From positions 1-23,562 of the IMG/VR virus record IMGVR_UViG_3300044712_000691: a stretch of 23,562 nucleotides of DNA. One strand, written 5' to 3'. The notes beneath the pieces were generated by a model. It had not been told where the DNA came from. It saw nothing but the letters and a program-made list of their open reading frames with translations, and made no database searches. Below, piece after piece: positions 2,343 to 19,967 of this stretch. Each line of letters opens with the position of its first letter. Position 1 is the stretch's first letter. Made by a program: the position numbers and the translations under genes. This stretch comes from a virus.

Positions 2343-3230
2343 CTATTTTGCTTTAACAACCCTTCCACGGCTCAGCTTGTAGTAAGTATCCGGCAATAGT
2401 TTTTTGCCATCTACCTTCACTGACCTTACATCTTTCAAAATCCACCCGTTGTTTTTCTCAATCCATTCGGATAGAACTATCCATGAACCTATCGAAGCTT
2501 TGGCCTTGTTTTGGATACCGAGACCGCAAGCAAATGAATCCTTTGCATTGGTTTCAGCAGATGAATAAGGGCCGACTGACATAGCGGCACCCCTGTAACC
2601 GGAATTGGAAGCGGCACCACTGTCACCGGAATTGGAAGCGGCACCCCTGTCACCGGAATTGGAAGCGGCACCACTGTCACCGGAATTGGAAGCGGCACCC
2701 CTGTAACCGGAATTGGAAGCGGCACCCCTGTAACCGGAATTGGAAGCGGCACCCCTGTAACCGGAATTGGAAGCGGCACCACTGTAACCGGAATTGGAAG
2801 CGGCACCCCTGTAACCGGAATTGGAAGCGGCACCACTGTAACCGGAATTGGAAGCTTGTTTTTTATCTTCCTTATTCGTAGTTTCTTTTGTCAGTGTTGT
2901 CCTCTCAAAAATGAACTTTACACCGGATTCAATAAGGTCGTGCAAACTAATTCTGGCTCCAATAGTAATTTTTGAAACCGCAATTTTTGTATCTGAGTTT
3001 TCTTTCCTGGATACATCTCCATCCCCATCAACTTCGTGATATAAAGAATCGGCGGGTGGATAATATCCAAATACATCAAGCGGGTTCTCACAGAAATGAA
3101 ATCCATTTTCCGTACATCGAACGGGTTTCTTTTTTGTTTCATACTCTTTGCCCTCTTCGTACTGAAAGCCACGGCACTTAAGGTCTTTATCAAAACCCTT
3201 AACGCCTTTAATTTTTTCTTCTTTTTTCAT
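2343..3230 (-). CDS. DUF7666-like phage protein with ten 9-residue repeats
   Basis: A 295-aa protein in three parts. Residues 8-115 (KGVKGFDKDLKCRGFQYEEG, then NGFHFCENPLDVFGYY) match what I recall as the DUF7666 domain found in many phages. Residues 126-215 are ten copies of ASNSGxxGA, with Y/D and S/R as the only alternatives at the two variable positions; this small-residue repeat probably folds as a beta-solenoid. Residues 216-295 (AMSVGPYSSAETNAKDSFACG onward) continue with degenerate repeats and a Trp-rich cap. The start lies 11 bases after the preceding gene. Function is unknown; repeat number probably varies between related phages. Confidence 0.75.
   Translation of the reverse strand: MKKEEKIKGVKGFDKDLKCRGFQYEEGKEYETKKKPVRCTENGFHFCENPLDVFGYYPPADSLYHEVDGDGDVSRKENSDTKIAVSKITIGARISLHDLIESGVKFIFERTTLTKETTNKEDKKQASNSGYSGAASNSGYRGAASNSGYSGAASNSGYRGAASNSGYRGAASNSGYRGAASNSGDSGAASNSGDRGAASNSGDSGAASNSGYRGAAMSVGPYSSAETNAKDSFACGLGIQNKAKASIGSWIVLSEWIEKNNGWILKDVRSVKVDGKKLLPDTYYKLSRGRVVKAK
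2586..2855 (-). repeat. 27-bp in-frame tandem repeat, ten perfect-length copies
   Basis: Ten head-to-tail copies of a 27-base unit (on the plus strand GGCACCMCTGTMACCGG then AATTGGAAGC). All copies are identical except at two bases: one switches Ser (AGT) and Arg (AGG), the other Tyr (TAC) and Asp (GAC). In protein order the pairs are YS, YR, YS, YR, YR, YR, DS, DR, DS, YR. Complete lack of silent changes shows recent expansion or ongoing homogenisation. Confidence 0.95.
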
Positions 3231-4060: not shown

Positions 4061-4233
4061 ACTTTTATCGTATTAAATTGAAATAATCTTGTGCATATCG
4101 GCAGTCCCGGAAGCTGAACACCGCTCTTGAAATAGTGATAAACCCCCGTATCGATGCGGTGCTTCTCACAGCCACATTCACACCTCCACCAGTCGAAGGA
4201 TGTTTGGGTCCAGGTATGTCTTAGAATCCGCAT
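4057..4233 (-). CDS. 58-aa Cys/Trp-rich small protein, translationally coupled
   Basis: This short frame starts at the ATG at 4233 inside the end of dnaB (13-base overlap) and stops with a TGA that overlaps the ATG of the SpoU gene. It encodes MRILRHTWTQ, then FDWWRCECGCEKHRID (residues 13-28) and LPICTRLFQF near the end. The clustered WWRCECGCE could bind zinc. Both ends dovetail with the neighbours exactly as other genes here do, which is the main reason to call it real. Family unknown. Confidence 0.6.
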   Translation of the reverse strand: MRILRHTWTQTSFDWWRCECGCEKHRIDTGVYHYFKSGVQLPGLPICTRLFQFNTIKV

Positions 4234-5591
4234 TCTGCTATATCCTCTATTTTGGTTAATGATACATTGTGCTGCAGGTAGAATGATCCGGTTATTCCGT
4301 TACGGTTTTTAGCGACAATGACCTCCATGATATTCGAAGCTTCGACCTCCCTGCCGCTGTTTATTATTATGCTTTTTGCCCCAAACATGGCAGGACGAAA
4401 AAGAAACCAGACAACATCTGCATCCTGTTCTATTGCCCCGGAATCCCTCAGGTCCGAAAGCACCGGCCTCTTATCTGTTCTTTCCTCGCATTTACGGCTT
4501 AACTGAGATAATGCTATAACCGGAATATTAAGATCCTTTGCAAGTAGTTTCAGTCCTCTTGAAATTGCAGACACTTCCTGTTCTCTGGACTTCCCTTCTT
4601 CATCTACCAGTTGCAGATAATCAATGATGATTATCTTTATCTTGCCCTGCATTATCAATCTCCTGACTTTCGCCCGCAATTGCATCATGTTCACTTCTGC
4701 CGTTGCATCAACATAAATAGGCAGTCCCGCAATCTGTTCTGTCTTGCTATATAGGTCATCGACATCACAACTGCCTTCCTGAAGTTCCACGTTTGTCTTT
4801 CCTGTTACACTGGATATGCTTCTTTGTGCCAGGGACTCCCCGGACATCTCAAGCGAGAATACACCTACCGGAAATCCGGCGGCAGCGACATTCATAGCAA
4901 TCTGAATAGCAACGGCAGTCTTACCCACCGAAGGACGGGCAGCAATTATGATAAGCTCCCCGTCTTTTAGTCCACCGGTTTTAGAATCTATCTCACTAAA
5001 TCCCGACGGTTTTCCGACAAACTTTATTTCATGGTTAATGATCCGCTGAATATTCTTTATGACATCATCAATATAAATTCCGAGTCTTTGAGCCTCTTTC
5101 TTCTGTCCGACACCGGAAAGATTTAATAATTCTGTTTCGGCATAAGCAAACAAATCAGATATGTCATTCGTGTCATCGTATGACATTGTTAACATTGATG
5201 ATGATATTCTGATAAATTCTCTCTGGATATACTTCTGTGCAACAATATGGGCGTGATACTCCACATTAGCCGCTGAAACAATCTTTGAAGTAAGTTGGGT
5301 AATATATAACGGACCTCCGGCAGCGTCAAGTTCATTCTTTGACATTAAGTCCTGAGTAACCATAAACAGGTCTGCCGGGATGCCTTTCTGTGTCAGGCTT
5401 AAGATTGAACGGTATATTATTCCGTGTGATTCTTTATAAAAGCTTTCCGGTTTTAAAATATCAATAACCTTAATGATCGCATCCCTGTCAATAAGTAAGG
5501 CAGCAAGAACAACCTCTTCAATGCTCACTGCTTGCGGGGGAACCTGACCAAAGTCGGGAAGTGGTGCGATATATGACCGCTGTTCTTTCAT
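4221..5591 (-). CDS. dnaB: replicative DNA helicase, DnaB family
   Basis: A 456-aa protein with the full DnaB layout. The N-terminal primase-interaction domain spans about residues 20-125 (VSIEEVVLAALLIDRDAI at its start), then a linker helix, then the RecA-like motor with Walker A ARPSVGKT (218-225), Walker B IIIIDYLQL (320-328) and the SQLSRKCEERTDKRP block with the arginine-finger region DLRDSGAIEQDAD. As a hexameric ATPase it unwinds DNA ahead of the fork. A longer frame opens at 5672, but the ATG at 5591 overlaps the loader gene's stop as ATGA and aligns with the usual family start, so it is preferred. It forms a replication pair with the upstream gene. Confidence 0.93.
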   Translation of the reverse strand: MKEQRSYIAPLPDFGQVPPQAVSIEEVVLAALLIDRDAIIKVIDILKPESFYKESHGIIYRSILSLTQKGIPADLFMVTQDLMSKNELDAAGGPLYITQLTSKIVSAANVEYHAHIVAQKYIQREFIRISSSMLTMSYDDTNDISDLFAYAETELLNLSGVGQKKEAQRLGIYIDDVIKNIQRIINHEIKFVGKPSGFSEIDSKTGGLKDGELIIIAARPSVGKTAVAIQIAMNVAAAGFPVGVFSLEMSGESLAQRSISSVTGKTNVELQEGSCDVDDLYSKTEQIAGLPIYVDATAEVNMMQLRAKVRRLIMQGKIKIIIIDYLQLVDEEGKSREQEVSAISRGLKLLAKDLNIPVIALSQLSRKCEERTDKRPVLSDLRDSGAIEQDADVVWFLFRPAMFGAKSIIINSGREVEASNIMEVIVAKNRNGITGSFYLQHNVSLTKIEDIAECGF

Positions 5592-6325
5592 TTGGCATCT
5601 GGTAAAACAAGGTTCTTCGCCCGATAAGGAACTTCGGAATAGTCTGTCGGAGTGTTGTTGTTTTTCATCCATCCGGCCTCAAAACCGCACCAACTTTTTT
5701 CAACTGCTTTTTTGATACATTCATTAGGAGTTGACCCGGAAAGTTCAATCTGTTTTTTTATAGCATTGAAAGCAGTTTCGGTATTAGCCCCGTCTTTCTT
5801 CTTGCGGACAATGAGCCAGTCAGAAACTATCTTTTCTTCTATGCCTAAGTCGATAAGTGATTTTTTAAAATCAAAGGGCTTTGGTTTTTCCCCCACACCC
5901 CCTTTATCTTTACCTATACCTTTACCTTGTTCCTGACTTTCAGGAACATCTTTCGTAATATTTACGTAACTTTTAGGTAACTTTAATGTAAAATCTGCAT
6001 TTATAAGATCGTGTTTTTCAAGTATTTGACGAGCTTGGGCGACAATGAATTTTTGAGAAGAAAGGTCTTTATACTGCCATTCTATAAATTTTGGCATGAA
6101 GTATTTAGATGAATCATTCAAAGGAATTAGGTAATCTTCAGGTAAAAAATCAAGTGATTTTATTTCTTTCCCGATCCAAAAAGAAGCATCCTCCAGGTCT
6201 AAATCAATAATTCCACCGTTATCACATTTAAGCATGAGATAGATTAAAAATGTCTTCTTTTCAGGGGATAGTTTTCTTATCCATTTCTGCTCTAAAAAGC
6301 CGGTGTCTAAAAATCGCTTACTCAT
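5588..6325 (-). CDS. replication initiator / helicase-loader-like protein
   Basis: A 245-aa protein. Residues 1-110 (MSKRFLDTGFLEQKWIRKLS, then FLIYLMLKCDNGGIIDLD) look like the winged-helix N-terminal domain of phage replisome organisers. Residues 120-150 are a Gln/Gly/Lys-rich linker. Residues 150-225 contain WLIVRKKKDGANTETAFNAI (170-189) and AVEKSWCGFEAGWM (206-219), a C-terminal motif common in phage helicase-loader or DnaT-like proteins. It is fused by an ATGA overlap to dnaB downstream, the expected position for a loader. Inferred role: binds the phage origin and recruits DnaB. No origin iterons were clear inside the gene. Confidence 0.75.
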   Translation of the reverse strand: MSKRFLDTGFLEQKWIRKLSPEKKTFLIYLMLKCDNGGIIDLDLEDASFWIGKEIKSLDFLPEDYLIPLNDSSKYFMPKFIEWQYKDLSSQKFIVAQARQILEKHDLINADFTLKLPKSYVNITKDVPESQEQGKGIGKDKGGVGEKPKPFDFKKSLIDLGIEEKIVSDWLIVRKKKDGANTETAFNAIKKQIELSGSTPNECIKKAVEKSWCGFEAGWMKNNNTPTDYSEVPYRAKNLVLPDAK

Positions 6326-6582: not shown

Positions 6583-6777
6583 TTAAGATTCGTAGATTTT
6601 AACCATACATTTGTCGAAAGAATCATAATGATCTTTGCATATTTTACATATGCAGGTCTTTCCCCATCCATCTTTAATAATCTCAGTATTTACCGGGACG
6701 CCGGACCAAAGGTCTTCGCCAATAACTTCATAAGTCATAGAAGCCTTACCGCATCTGCATTTTACAATATCACTCAT
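6583..6777 (-). CDS. small Cys-rich protein, first gene after leader
   Basis: A 64-aa protein with CRCGK (residues 8-12) and CICKICKDHYDSFDKC (42-57), giving seven Cys residues likely to hold zinc. It is the first full gene behind the promoter at 6920-6949 and the long structured leader. That position puts it, the zinc-ribbon gene, the helicase loader and dnaB under the same operator and attenuator. Function unknown. Confidence 0.6.
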   Translation of the reverse strand: MSDIVKCRCGKASMTYEVIGEDLWSGVPVNTEIIKDGWGKTCICKICKDHYDSFDKCMVKIYES

Positions 6778-6898
6778 GGCTATAATAGTTTAACCGCCCC
6801 AGCAACAAAAAATCCCGCAGGCAAACTTCCGGAGAGCCTTTGGGATTAAATGCACCAGGGCGGTGTATCTTAAATCGAATATTTATTAAACAGTTCAT
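6770..6898 (-). CDS. possible 42-codon leader peptide spanning the attenuator
   Basis: Starting at the ATG at 6898, about 15 bases into the predicted leader RNA, a frame of 42 codons (MNCLINIRFK to LNYYSHE) runs through the whole terminator hairpin and stops at 6770-6772, overlapping the start of the next gene (6777) by 8 bases. A translating ribosome would melt the hairpin, so this could be a leader ORF. The open frame may also be chance; the peptide has no obvious regulatory codon run. Confidence 0.3.
   Translation of the reverse strand: MNCLINIRFKIHRPGAFNPKGSPEVCLRDFLLLGRLNYYSHE
6793..6864 (-). terminator. leader attenuator: terminator nested in an outer stem
   Basis: On the minus strand the inner hairpin pairs AATCCCAAAGGC (6836-6847) with GCCTGCGGGATT (6811-6822), 10 of 12 positions, and is followed by six Ts: an intrinsic terminator. 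An outer 7-bp stem (ACCGCCC at 6858-6864 with GGGCGGT at 6793-6799) encloses it. The hairpin loop TCTCCGGAAGT (6825-6835) is perfectly complementary to ACTTCCGGAGA (6899-6909) near the RNA 5' end, so an alternative pairing is possible. The position between promoter and first gene suggests attenuation. Confidence 0.65.
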
Positions 6899-6919
6899 TC
6901 TCCGGAAGTAATTATGCAA

Positions 6920-6949
6920 CAAATATAGTATTTCCGAAATACAGTGCAA
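6920..6949 (-). promoter_or_regulatory. early promoter with operator palindrome (site 2)
   Basis: On the minus strand: -33 TTG (6947-6949), 19-base spacer, -7 TATATTTG (6920-6927), a perfect match to the Bacteroidota TTG / TAnnTTTG pattern. The spacer contains the perfect 7+1+7 palindrome GTATTTC-C-GAAATAC (6928-6942), directly abutting the -7 box, so a bound regulator would block polymerase. Predicted start near 6913. It would drive a leader and then the genes from 6777 leftwards (replication genes). Confidence 0.8.
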
Positions 6950-8996: not shown

Positions 8997-9404
8997 TTAC
9001 ATGAATGATATTAGTTGTCGTTCAATTTCATCTTTTGTGCATCCTACATCCTTGATTACTTCATCAAGGACCCGTGAATAGATTTCCTTAAATTCAGCCT
9101 GGTTCTTATTGGAAAAACTGATTGATTCAGCTTCATACAAAACTCCAACATCGGTTTGAAATGCCTTGAAATATCCGGCCTTTATAAGCAGGAATTTCCG
9201 GTATGTATCAAATGGAAGTTGCAGGCTTGTATTCTCAAAACCGACATTCAGTAGTGCAAAGAACTTGCGATGAAACCCAACATTCCTGGGAAGTTTAAGG
9301 TCGGCCTCATAATCAACTCCGAGCTTCAGTTTACGTTTCTCGTCGTAATCTGAAGGATAGAGCGGTATGAGACCGGCCAGTGTATTTCTAAGAAAGATTT
9401 TCAT
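8997..9404 (-). CDS. DUF1367 family phage protein
   Basis: A 135-aa protein with the family core LPRNVGFHRKFFALLNVGFE (residues 38-57) and FRKF/LLIKAGYF and SISFSNKNQAEFKEIYSRV (94-112) segments. DUF1367 proteins are found beside phage recombination and SSB genes; function is not established, though several neighbours suggest DNA replication or recombination. Start overlaps the ssb stop as ATGA. Confidence 0.8.
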   Translation of the reverse strand: MKIFLRNTLAGLIPLYPSDYDEKRKLKLGVDYEADLKLPRNVGFHRKFFALLNVGFENTSLQLPFDTYRKFLLIKAGYFKAFQTDVGVLYEAESISFSNKNQAEFKEIYSRVLDEVIKDVGCTKDEIERQLISFM

Positions 9405-9841
9405 GCAAACGGATCAAAATCATTTGCACCAGGTAACTCGTTTATGTCCGAGTGTGATGCGATTACTTCATCATTTCGGGATGCAGATGTTTTCGCTGAA
9501 AGATCCAATGCTGTTGGTGATGATTCTTTCTTTCCGGCAAAATGAATCTCAGAACAGACAATTTCTGTAACGTTCCTTTTTACTCCGTCCCTGTCTATGT
9601 ATTCCCGGTAGTTGATTTCACCGACAACAATAAGGCTCGATCCTTTCTTTACAAACTTTTCGCATAGTTCCGCTATTTTGCCCCATGCAATAATGTTGTG
9701 CCAGTCGGATTGACGGTTGCCGTCTTTGTCCTTATATGTCCGGGTTGTTGCAAGGCTGAATTTCGCCACGCATTTACCGGATTCAAGATGTTTAACATCG
9801 GGATCTTTCCCAACATTGCCGTGCAAGATTGCTTTGTTCAT
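9401..9841 (-). CDS. ssb: single-stranded DNA-binding protein (SSB)
   Basis: A 146-aa SSB. The OB fold covers residues 1-105: MNKAILHGNVGKDPDVKHLE, FSLATTRTYKDKDGN, DWHNIIAWGKIAE, and KGSSLIVVGEINYREY are all typical. A flexible tail follows, ending GANDFDPFA. Most SSBs end in DDDIPF, the tip that recruits partner proteins; here the acid-Pro-Phe core is present but followed by an extra Ala. It coats single-stranded DNA during phage replication and works with the exonuclease directly upstream (ATGA overlap at 9838-9841). Confidence 0.93.
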   Translation of the reverse strand: MNKAILHGNVGKDPDVKHLESGKCVAKFSLATTRTYKDKDGNRQSDWHNIIAWGKIAELCEKFVKKGSSLIVVGEINYREYIDRDGVKRNVTEIVCSEIHFAGKKESSPTALDLSAKTSASRNDEVIASHSDINELPGANDFDPFA

Positions 9842-12549: not shown

Positions 12550-12807
12550 TTATTCTTGCGTAAAAAAGGACACATTAACAGAATCGTAAACGAACTTATG
12601 CAGAACTTCATCCTTGAAGTTGGTTGCATAGTATGAGTTACCAGAAAGCTCAATTTTCTGGATACAATTACTCGAATGCACGTGAGGTTTGTTGTTATCG
12701 GGGAATACAGAATAATCCATTTCCTTAGTACAAACCATCAATAAGATAGGCTCTCTTGAATATGCCTCTGATATTGATTTGATTCTTAATTCGTCTTCTG
12801 CTTTCAT
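12550..12807 (-). CDS. hypothetical protein
   Basis: An 85-aa protein (MKAEDELRIKSISEAYSREP start, mixed alpha/beta composition, two Cys residues). Its ATG overlaps the stop of the 42-aa zinc protein as ATGA and it ends 6 bases before the next gene. No domain recognised. Confidence 0.55.
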   Translation of the reverse strand: MKAEDELRIKSISEAYSREPILLMVCTKEMDYSVFPDNNKPHVHSSNCIQKIELSGNSYYATNFKDEVLHKFVYDSVNVSFFTQE

Positions 12808-16633: not shown

Positions 16634-16666
16634 TTTGGATAGTATTTAAGAAATACATTATATTTG
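16634..16666 (+). promoter_or_regulatory. rightward promoter with operator palindrome (site 3)
   Basis: -33 TTTG (16634-16637), 21-base spacer, -7 TATATTTG (16659-16666). The palindrome GTATTTAAGAAATAC (16642-16656) fills the spacer, two bases from the -7 box. Predicted start near 16673. It drives a leader with an attenuator and then the genes at 16763-17712. Confidence 0.8.
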
Positions 16667-16676
16667 TCCCCGTGTA

Positions 16677-16747
16677 GTCGAGGACACAATTAAGATATTG
16701 GTTTAAACCATAAAGCCTCTGGGTGTCTCGACCGCTCAGGGGCTTTT
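16677..16747 (+). terminator. leader attenuator with 5'-leader/loop complementarity
   Basis: The terminator hairpin pairs AAAGCCTCTG (16712-16721) with CAGGGGCTTT (16737-16746), ten pairs with one wobble, followed by TTTT and a second T run. Its loop holds GTGTCTCGAC (16723-16732), complementary, with one bulged G, to GTCGAGGACAC at 16677-16687, only about four bases into the predicted RNA. If these pair, the terminator would be hindered. A small self-pairing TGGTTTAAACCA (16699-16710) lies between. No ATG occurs in the leader, so this one is not translation-coupled. Confidence 0.7.
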
Positions 16748-16762
16748 AATTTTTAGGAGAAC

Positions 16763-19457: not shown

Positions 19458-19668
19458 AAAAACCCTCAAATTGCTCTGAGGGCTTCATGCTTTGGGACAT
19501 CAACCTTTCCGCACCATGCATAGGCTGACTGATAACGTGGGTTTACAGTCACTTACCGGATCTCTGTCAGGTTCGCAGAGAGGGAACGCCCGCCTTCAAG
19601 GATAATCCCTTTAGTCCCAAATCGTTTTTAAAGTTTCATCTGCGTAAATGTTTTATTGCTTAAAAGCG
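19458..19668 (-). ncRNA. candidate structured small RNA, about 210 nt
   Basis: A promoter (19674-19705) and an intrinsic terminator (CCCTCA / TGAGGG, 19463-19468 and 19477-19482, followed by TTTTT) bracket about 210 bases with no usable ORF. In the RNA, an 8-bp closing stem TTTGGGAC / GTCCCAAA (19614-19621 with 19491-19498) encloses hairpins TCTCTG/CAGAGA (19561-19581) and TGACTG/CAGTCA (19526-19551). The closing stem's 3' arm also overlaps an 11-bp inverted repeat (19485-19495 with 19410-19420) that encloses the terminator. It does not match tmRNA, RNase P, SRP, 6S or any riboswitch I can recall. Confidence 0.5.
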
Positions 19669-19673
19669 TAGCA

Positions 19674-19705
19674 CAAAGATAAAGTATTACTCTGATACGA
19701 TCAAA
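19674..19705 (-). promoter_or_regulatory. promoter for small RNA, with degenerate operator
   Basis: -33 TTTG (19702-19705), 20-base spacer, -7 TATCTTTG (19674-19681): a perfect consensus match. The spacer holds GTATTACTCTGATAC (19684-19698), which keeps the GTAT...ATAC ends and the position of the operator seen at the other promoters but has a different middle (10 of 15 identical to site 2). Confidence 0.7.
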
Positions 19706-19935: not shown

Positions 19936-19967
19936 CAAATATATGTATTTACGAAATACGCACCAAA
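19936..19967 (-). promoter_or_regulatory. small-RNA promoter with operator palindrome (site 4)
   Basis: -33 TTTG (19964-19967), 20-base spacer, -7 TATATTTG (19936-19943) on the minus strand. GTATTTACGAAATAC (19945-19959) lies in the spacer one base from the -7 box, as at sites 2 and 3. No protein gene lies immediately downstream. Confidence 0.8.

Follow-up and report, generated by a model that had tools for sequence, protein, structure and literature searches.

A candidate attenuator in early-transcript leaders of Bacteroidota phages: complementarity between the RNA 5′ end and a terminator loop

Two leaders in the window

The window (the whole 23,562-base stretch of DNA analysed) is a viral contig. 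It shows the promoter consensus of the Bacteroidota type and encodes an integrase and HTH proteins, and its minus strand carries a long early operon. The following minus-strand genes are relevant here.

6583-6777, minus: first gene downstream of leader 1, 64 aa, Cys-rich
5588-6325, minus: O-like replication initiator / primosomal protein
4221-5672, minus: DnaB-type replicative helicase

The product of 5588-6325 had been annotated as a helicase loader, a name replaced here on the basis of its PHROG profile matches. No relatives of the 64-aa protein were found among viral contigs when it was used as the query, searching phage nucleotide sequences with the window region gave no match, and no Rfam match was obtained within the window.

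Upstream of the 64-aa gene, the following parts of leader 1 were located.

6949-6920, minus: Bacteroidota-type promoter TTGCACTGTATTTCGGAAATACTATATTTG, with TTG at -33 and TATATTTG at -7
6928-6942, no strand: palindrome GTATTTCSGAAATAC / GTATTTCGGAAATAC between the promoter elements, putative operator
6909-6899, minus: segment A, ACTTCCGGAGA, at the transcript 5′ end and abutting the leader ATG
ATG 6898 to TGA 6770, minus: leader ORF of 42 codons, crossing into the ATG of the next gene
6793-6864, minus: outer stem, ACCGCC (6864-6859) / GGCGGT (6798-6793), enclosing the inner terminator
6847-6807, minus: inner intrinsic terminator, AATCCC-AA-AGGC[A′ loop]GCCT-GC-GGGATT-TTTT, hairpin and T-run
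6835-6825, minus: segment A′, TCTCCGGAAGT, in the terminator loop; cis duplex with A, -19.9 kcal/mol

The first-pass annotation had described an RNA 5′ end complementary over 11 bases to the loop of a terminator, itself nested in a second stem behind an operator-bearing promoter, and a 42-codon ORF ending on the next start codon. All of these parts were found as described. The A:A′ pairing is Watson-Crick at 11 of 11 positions, the terminator hairpin following A about 63 nt later, and a perfect run of at least 11 between the 5′ end and the remaining leader arose in five of 5,000 dinucleotide shuffles (P ~ 0.001). The stop codon of the leader ORF overlaps the next ATG (6777) as ATGAGTGA.

The promoter conforms to the TAnnTTTG/TTTG consensus of Bacteroidota (PMC7366714), and in a pattern search it was the only perfect match to TTG-N19-TAnnTTTG in the window. 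The exact palindrome pattern GTATTTNNNNAATAC occurs at four window sites (1377-1391, 6928-6942, 16642-16656 and 19945-19959), which may form the regulon of a single repressor; with up to two mismatches, 36 sites were counted against 12.2 expected. Three of the four exact sites lie upstream of TATATTTG -7 boxes. An A/A′ leader follows only two of the exact-palindrome promoters, and the second of these (leader 2, 16667-16760) comprises the following.

16642-16656, plus: second operator, exact palindrome
16659-16666, plus: -7 box TATATTTG
16672-16687, plus: 5′ hairpin GTGT[AGTCGAGG]ACAC
16677-16687, plus: segment A, GTCGAGGACAC
16712-16754, plus: terminator, its T-run preceding ATG 16763
16723-16732, plus: segment A′, GTGTCTCGAC, in the terminator loop

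The annotation had assigned both leaders the same design. The second leader does exist, but its A:A′ pairing, 10 bp long, contains a one-base bulge and is weak alone for that reason; its longest perfect run was equalled in 811 of 4,000 shuffles, which is not significant by itself. Relatives of the gene behind leader 2 (L006-L009) were too distant for use, and a match in L009 was set aside.

Relatives, leader types and further phages

A set of relatives selected independently of RNA features was obtained by a protein search with the product of 5588-6325, which returned L002, L003, L004, L005 and L151. All five keep a promoter-like sequence, an A segment, an A′-bearing hairpin and a start codon, and their leaders sit upstream of the replication gene or of a small gene preceding it. 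The 5′/loop match and the terminator were thus retained in close relatives, with different letters: the A segments in this set are TGTGATTAA, ACGAGTGAC, CAGAGCG, CAGAGCGAC and AGGAAGCGTTAC, compared with ACTTCCGGAGA in the window. The inner hairpin of L002 has no T-run directly after it; in L002_b a T-run comes after A′ instead. A scan by DNA pattern added L011, L013, L015, L017 and L023, whose leaders, where the following gene is complete, precede early genes for a DNA methylase, a ParB-like protein or a product of unknown function (named by eye from translations). The outer stem can also be read in L003, L004, L005, L013, L015, L017, L023 and L151.

The closest comparison was provided by L013 and L003, whose leaders are nearly identical. 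Their A:A′ pairings differ at three of nine pairs, and all three differences are compensated by double changes; A and A′ are also more changed than the remaining leader. The L003 record (phage G004) carries three leaders with three different A sequences. Since MAFFT misaligned A and A′ among divergent leaders, covariation was assessed from close pairs and leader by leader instead of with a covariance model. Each phage spells the A/A′ match in letters of its own, which indicates that the match is under selection. Just upstream of the L003 leader, positions 9220-9700 form a low-complexity region with many AAAGTTTGAA/AAAAGTATA-like variants.

Two types of leader were distinguished. In type I (leader-ORF), A abuts the start codon of a leader ORF, whose ATG is 8-12 nt from the start of A. 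Conservation of this ORF held in part: of the 15 sequences checked, 13 have an ORF of 27-44 codons, but in L151 and L003_c it ends ahead of the hairpins or within them. The ORF stop and the next start codon overlap in the window, L005, phi13:2 and phi19:3; in several others the stop comes 2-29 nt earlier. Between phi13:2 (L178) and phi19:3 (L179), two compensating one-base indels in T-runs restore the frame, a hint that the frame is perhaps selected; phi46:3 keeps only one T-run indel and its leader ORF ends 5 nt short of the next start. In type II (hairpin), there is no start codon near A, which is displayed in the loop of a 5′ hairpin. Members are window leader 2, BI-TP1, elemoA, phi18:3, L092, L103 and L154, with hairpins such as GTAATA[GTAGCAG]TATTAC in BI-TP1 (whose terminator carries the complementary loop CTGCTAC), GTTATTA[AGGTGAGAGC]TAATAAC in elemoA, GGTTC[...]GAACC in L092 and GGTCT[...]AGACC in L103.

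For further leaders, a detector requiring TAnnTTTG, an A segment close to the 5′ end and at least 8 nt long, a perfect A′ enclosed by a stem, and a T-run was used. Applied to 1.29 Mb, it identified eight distinct leaders and none in three shuffles. Two further promoter-anchored scans, of IMG/VR contigs and of named phages, gave no match in five shuffles each for A of at least 8 nt. When the promoter was relaxed, shuffles matched five times and once (two shuffles of 1.93 Mb). A promoter-free scan of 1.97 Mb yielded 12 unique matches, 10 of which are leaders behind TAnnTTTG-like promoters (shuffles, 3 and 0). A is only 7 nt long in some leaders, those of BI-TP1, elemoA, LoVEphage and L154, a length at which shuffles occasionally match.

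Named phages were covered by the detector scan and by homologous neighbours, and leaders turned up in cultured phages of Bacteroides, Phocaeicola, Cellulophaga and Flavobacterium; the observation is confirmed and extends far beyond the window. In Cellulophaga phi13:2, phi19:3 and phi46:3, A is CTCTCACAA before an ATG, and the leader precedes an operon with a DnaC-like gene. Cellulophaga phi18:3 has the promoter of phi13:2 followed by an entirely different leader of the same design (A, CTTCTGAC). The two lie at 3183 on the minus strand of L178 (phi13:2) and at 1610 on the plus strand of L181 (phi18:3), both before the replication operon, as if the leader module had been exchanged as a unit. The leader of Flavobacterium elemoA is ahead of the replication operon; those of Bacteroides BS-TP2 and BI-TP1 are divergent from S24 repressors, and leaders in BI-TP1 and LoVEphage are ahead of KilA-N/Rha antirepressor genes.

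In total, 25 leaders were curated. Most, including most of type II, were picked for having A:A′; the unselected evidence consists of the relatives found by protein similarity and the homologous neighbours. Single matches of 7-8 nt are not rare, and L002, L004 and window leader 2 were each weak alone in the shuffle test; for nine leaders combined, P was ~ 1e-9. In one DNA-pattern scan of GTDB genome contigs, zero true type I (nested leader-ORF) members were found. This type is therefore rare in GTDB genomes, and the host range rests on a few named phages.

Matches from the DNA-pattern scans were mostly chance and were removed by the A/A′ test and by eye. The match in P. gingivalis phage025a (TGTTGGACG) was rejected as repeat-driven, those in L044, L176, L084 and L115 were left out as unclear or chance, and no leader was accepted in P. 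gingivalis phage005a, Riemerella PJN03, MT835658 or MT835681. No Rfam match scoring at or above the gathering threshold overlapped any leader at the scanned loci. Downstream of the leader in BS-TP2 (L172) and still within that early region, positions 12753-12801 gave a strong Rfam match to a known motif, the DUF2693-FD RNA. No published description of such leaders was found in a search that covered few subscription journals.

Predicted folding and a probable conditional terminator

To place the two segments in the order of transcription, folds were predicted for the 25 leaders. In all 25, RNA cut just past A′ was predicted to fold with A:A′, because the 3′ arm of the terminator does not yet exist. 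Once the full terminator is present, the predicted A:A′ and A-free states differ by -8.7 to +9.4 kcal/mol, an arrangement expected of a bistable attenuator. The A:A′ state is predicted to be more stable by at least 1 kcal/mol in about half of the leaders, and the A-free structure in L154, L003_a, phi13:2_b, BS-TP2, phi18:3 and a few others. In most leaders, the cis A′ was the strongest partner of A among the 25 loops (-12 to -21 kcal/mol). Two features of intrinsic-terminator attenuators are thereby present: a terminator between the promoter and the first gene and, in the predicted folds of 25 of 25 leaders, an upstream pairing that competes with it.

These leaders are best read as promoter-proximal conditional terminators (attenuators) controlled by A:A′ pairing, with a probability of roughly 0.55. 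This reading leads because the architecture is kept in five of five relatives and because of the compensatory changes between L013 and L003. It builds on the parts themselves, their conservation with compensatory change, their place behind promoters and the predicted folding order, all established directly; from these we infer that the hairpin terminates transcription in vivo, that A:A′ opposes it, which competitor occupies A and in which direction the switch works.

The leader would then probably work as an on/off switch that takes up about the first 110 nt of an early phage transcript. The RNA 5′ end, A, is complementary to the loop A′ of the intrinsic terminator just before the first gene and, as A′ is transcribed before the 3′ arm of the terminator, A:A′ could pair first. 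Such pairing would postpone or block terminator formation, so that RNA polymerase could read through to the replication genes; were A occupied, A′ would be free and the terminator would fold. In type I, the likely occupant would be a ribosome starting at the abutting leader ORF. The other likely occupant, acting in trans, would be the A′ loop of a leader RNA whose transcription has already ended, which would make early expression self-limiting.

A ribosome on a type I leader would have two opposite effects: an initiating one would hide A, and one translating onward would melt the terminator. The latter effect had been suggested in the first-pass annotation. It suits the leader-ORF type only, as the hairpin type has no adjacent start codon, and in L151 and L003_c the ORF ends too early. 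The type II 5′ hairpin, which already displays A in its loop, is a point against the attenuator, being unneeded for a simple antiterminator. A nested-folding prediction has no means of scoring A:A′ and the terminator at once, and the two may coexist as a pseudoknot or kissing complex, so the direction of the switch is inferred.

Little is recorded of the control of early transcription in phages of this dominant gut phylum. A conditional terminator would add an RNA layer beneath the protein repressor and, with the leader rebuilt in new letters each time, it is directly testable by compensatory mutation. The natural variety of A/A′ would also supply Bacteroides engineering with orthogonal RNA switches that are ready to use.

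Alternative readings and known RNA systems

The strongest alternative, although clearly less probable than the attenuator, is an immunity RNA acting in trans: the A′ loop of a terminated leader would bind A of the same or an incoming phage, and A/A′ would encode immunity specificity. A in type I is the ribosome-binding region of the leader ORF (in every leader-ORF leader checked, the start of A is 8-12 nt from the ATG), so A′ binding would stop translation and transcription would end early. The P4 CI RNA offers a precedent: it derives from the replication-operon leader and, by pairing with seqA and seqC, ends transcription prematurely (PMC4825925). The leaders resemble P4 immunity (CI RNA, seqA/seqB/seqC) in belonging to a replication operon, in having a 5′ segment complementary to a site further down and, as proposed, in having premature termination as the output. 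However, A′ here belongs to the loop of an intrinsic terminator that immediately precedes the first gene, there is a single target segment, and several differently coded copies occur per phage. No convincing extra copy of A that could serve as a seqC-like second target was found in the phage sequences: in six of seven cases only A and A′ were present, and the seventh had one extra, chance-like copy of GAGAATGAC.

The C4 RNA of P1/P7 similarly has a loop that occludes the ribosome-binding region of an upstream ORF and a variable specificity loop (PMC5320573). The greater change of A/A′ between L003 and L013 and the three A sequences of G004 also speak for an immunity RNA. Against a C4 RNA, the leaders lack the C4 fold (no match to the C4 covariance model of Rfam), have another gene order and give no sign of RNase P processing. 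Hairpin-type leaders have no start codon beside A and, because the window promoter has an operator, its leader may be silent in the lysogen. Equally tentative is an extension to a widespread RNA specificity system of Bacteroidota phages, in which each early operon would have its own 7-12-bp A/A′ code, the terminated leader would be diffusible, and matching codes would decide superinfection immunity or self-limitation between phages, apart from the protein repressor.

Somewhat less likely again is translational control, in which A:A′ would block the start of the leader ORF, the ORF would feed ribosomes to the next gene by termination-reinitiation, as happens in the replication control of IncI/IncB plasmids, and transcription termination would be minor. 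The ORF stops that overlap or closely precede the next start, and the frame kept between phi13:2 and phi19:3, are consistent with this. It is countered by the hairpin-type leaders, which have the same A/A′ and terminator without an ORF, by the early ends in L151 and L003_c, and by the T-runs that end most hairpins. The rep leaders of IncI/IncB plasmids combine a leader peptide with a pseudoknot, the leader ORF overlapping the rep start. They share with the present leaders this overlap and a loop pairing with a distant segment, but that segment is here at the 5′ end by the leader-ORF start rather than at the rep start, and a terminator is present.

In a rather improbable reading, A:A′ would instead be a tertiary contact, either a pseudoknot or a pair of kissing loops, and would promote termination by stabilising the terminator or protecting the RNA that ends there. 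The loops of BI-TP1, elemoA, phi18:3, LoVEphage, L092 and L103 could kiss without opening either stem; a longer stem, however, would achieve the same more simply, and the predicted advantage of A:A′ over the A-free structure in about half of the leaders also argues against it. An ordinary leader and terminator with a chance match was already disfavoured and is very improbable: individual short matches are common enough, but the window and combined P values, the five of five relatives and the compensatory changes all oppose it.

For the attenuator itself, a close known parallel is pT181, in which a 5′ element acts as an antiterminator against an intrinsic terminator and pairing initiates loop to loop (PMC4878617). 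In pT181 it is the 5′ arm of the terminator that the antiterminator engages, whereas A pairs with the loop and not with the 5′ half of the stem. Furthermore, pT181 is driven by an antisense RNA; opposite-strand promoters were found by pattern in only two of 17 leaders, about the shuffled rate of 0.14 per leader.

Two other regions of the window were noted. Positions 2529-2906, within the gene 2343-3230, hold ten overlapping-register copies of a 27-nt tandem repeat encoding ASNSGYSGA/ASNSGYRGA repeats. On the minus strand of 19460-19700, adjoining the integrase, an operator-like palindrome GTATCAGAGTAATAC (19684-19698) and a TATCTTTG -7 box precede a stretch of ~230 nt that lacks any obvious ORF and has a terminator-like hairpin at its end; this region is possibly a separate phage small RNA.
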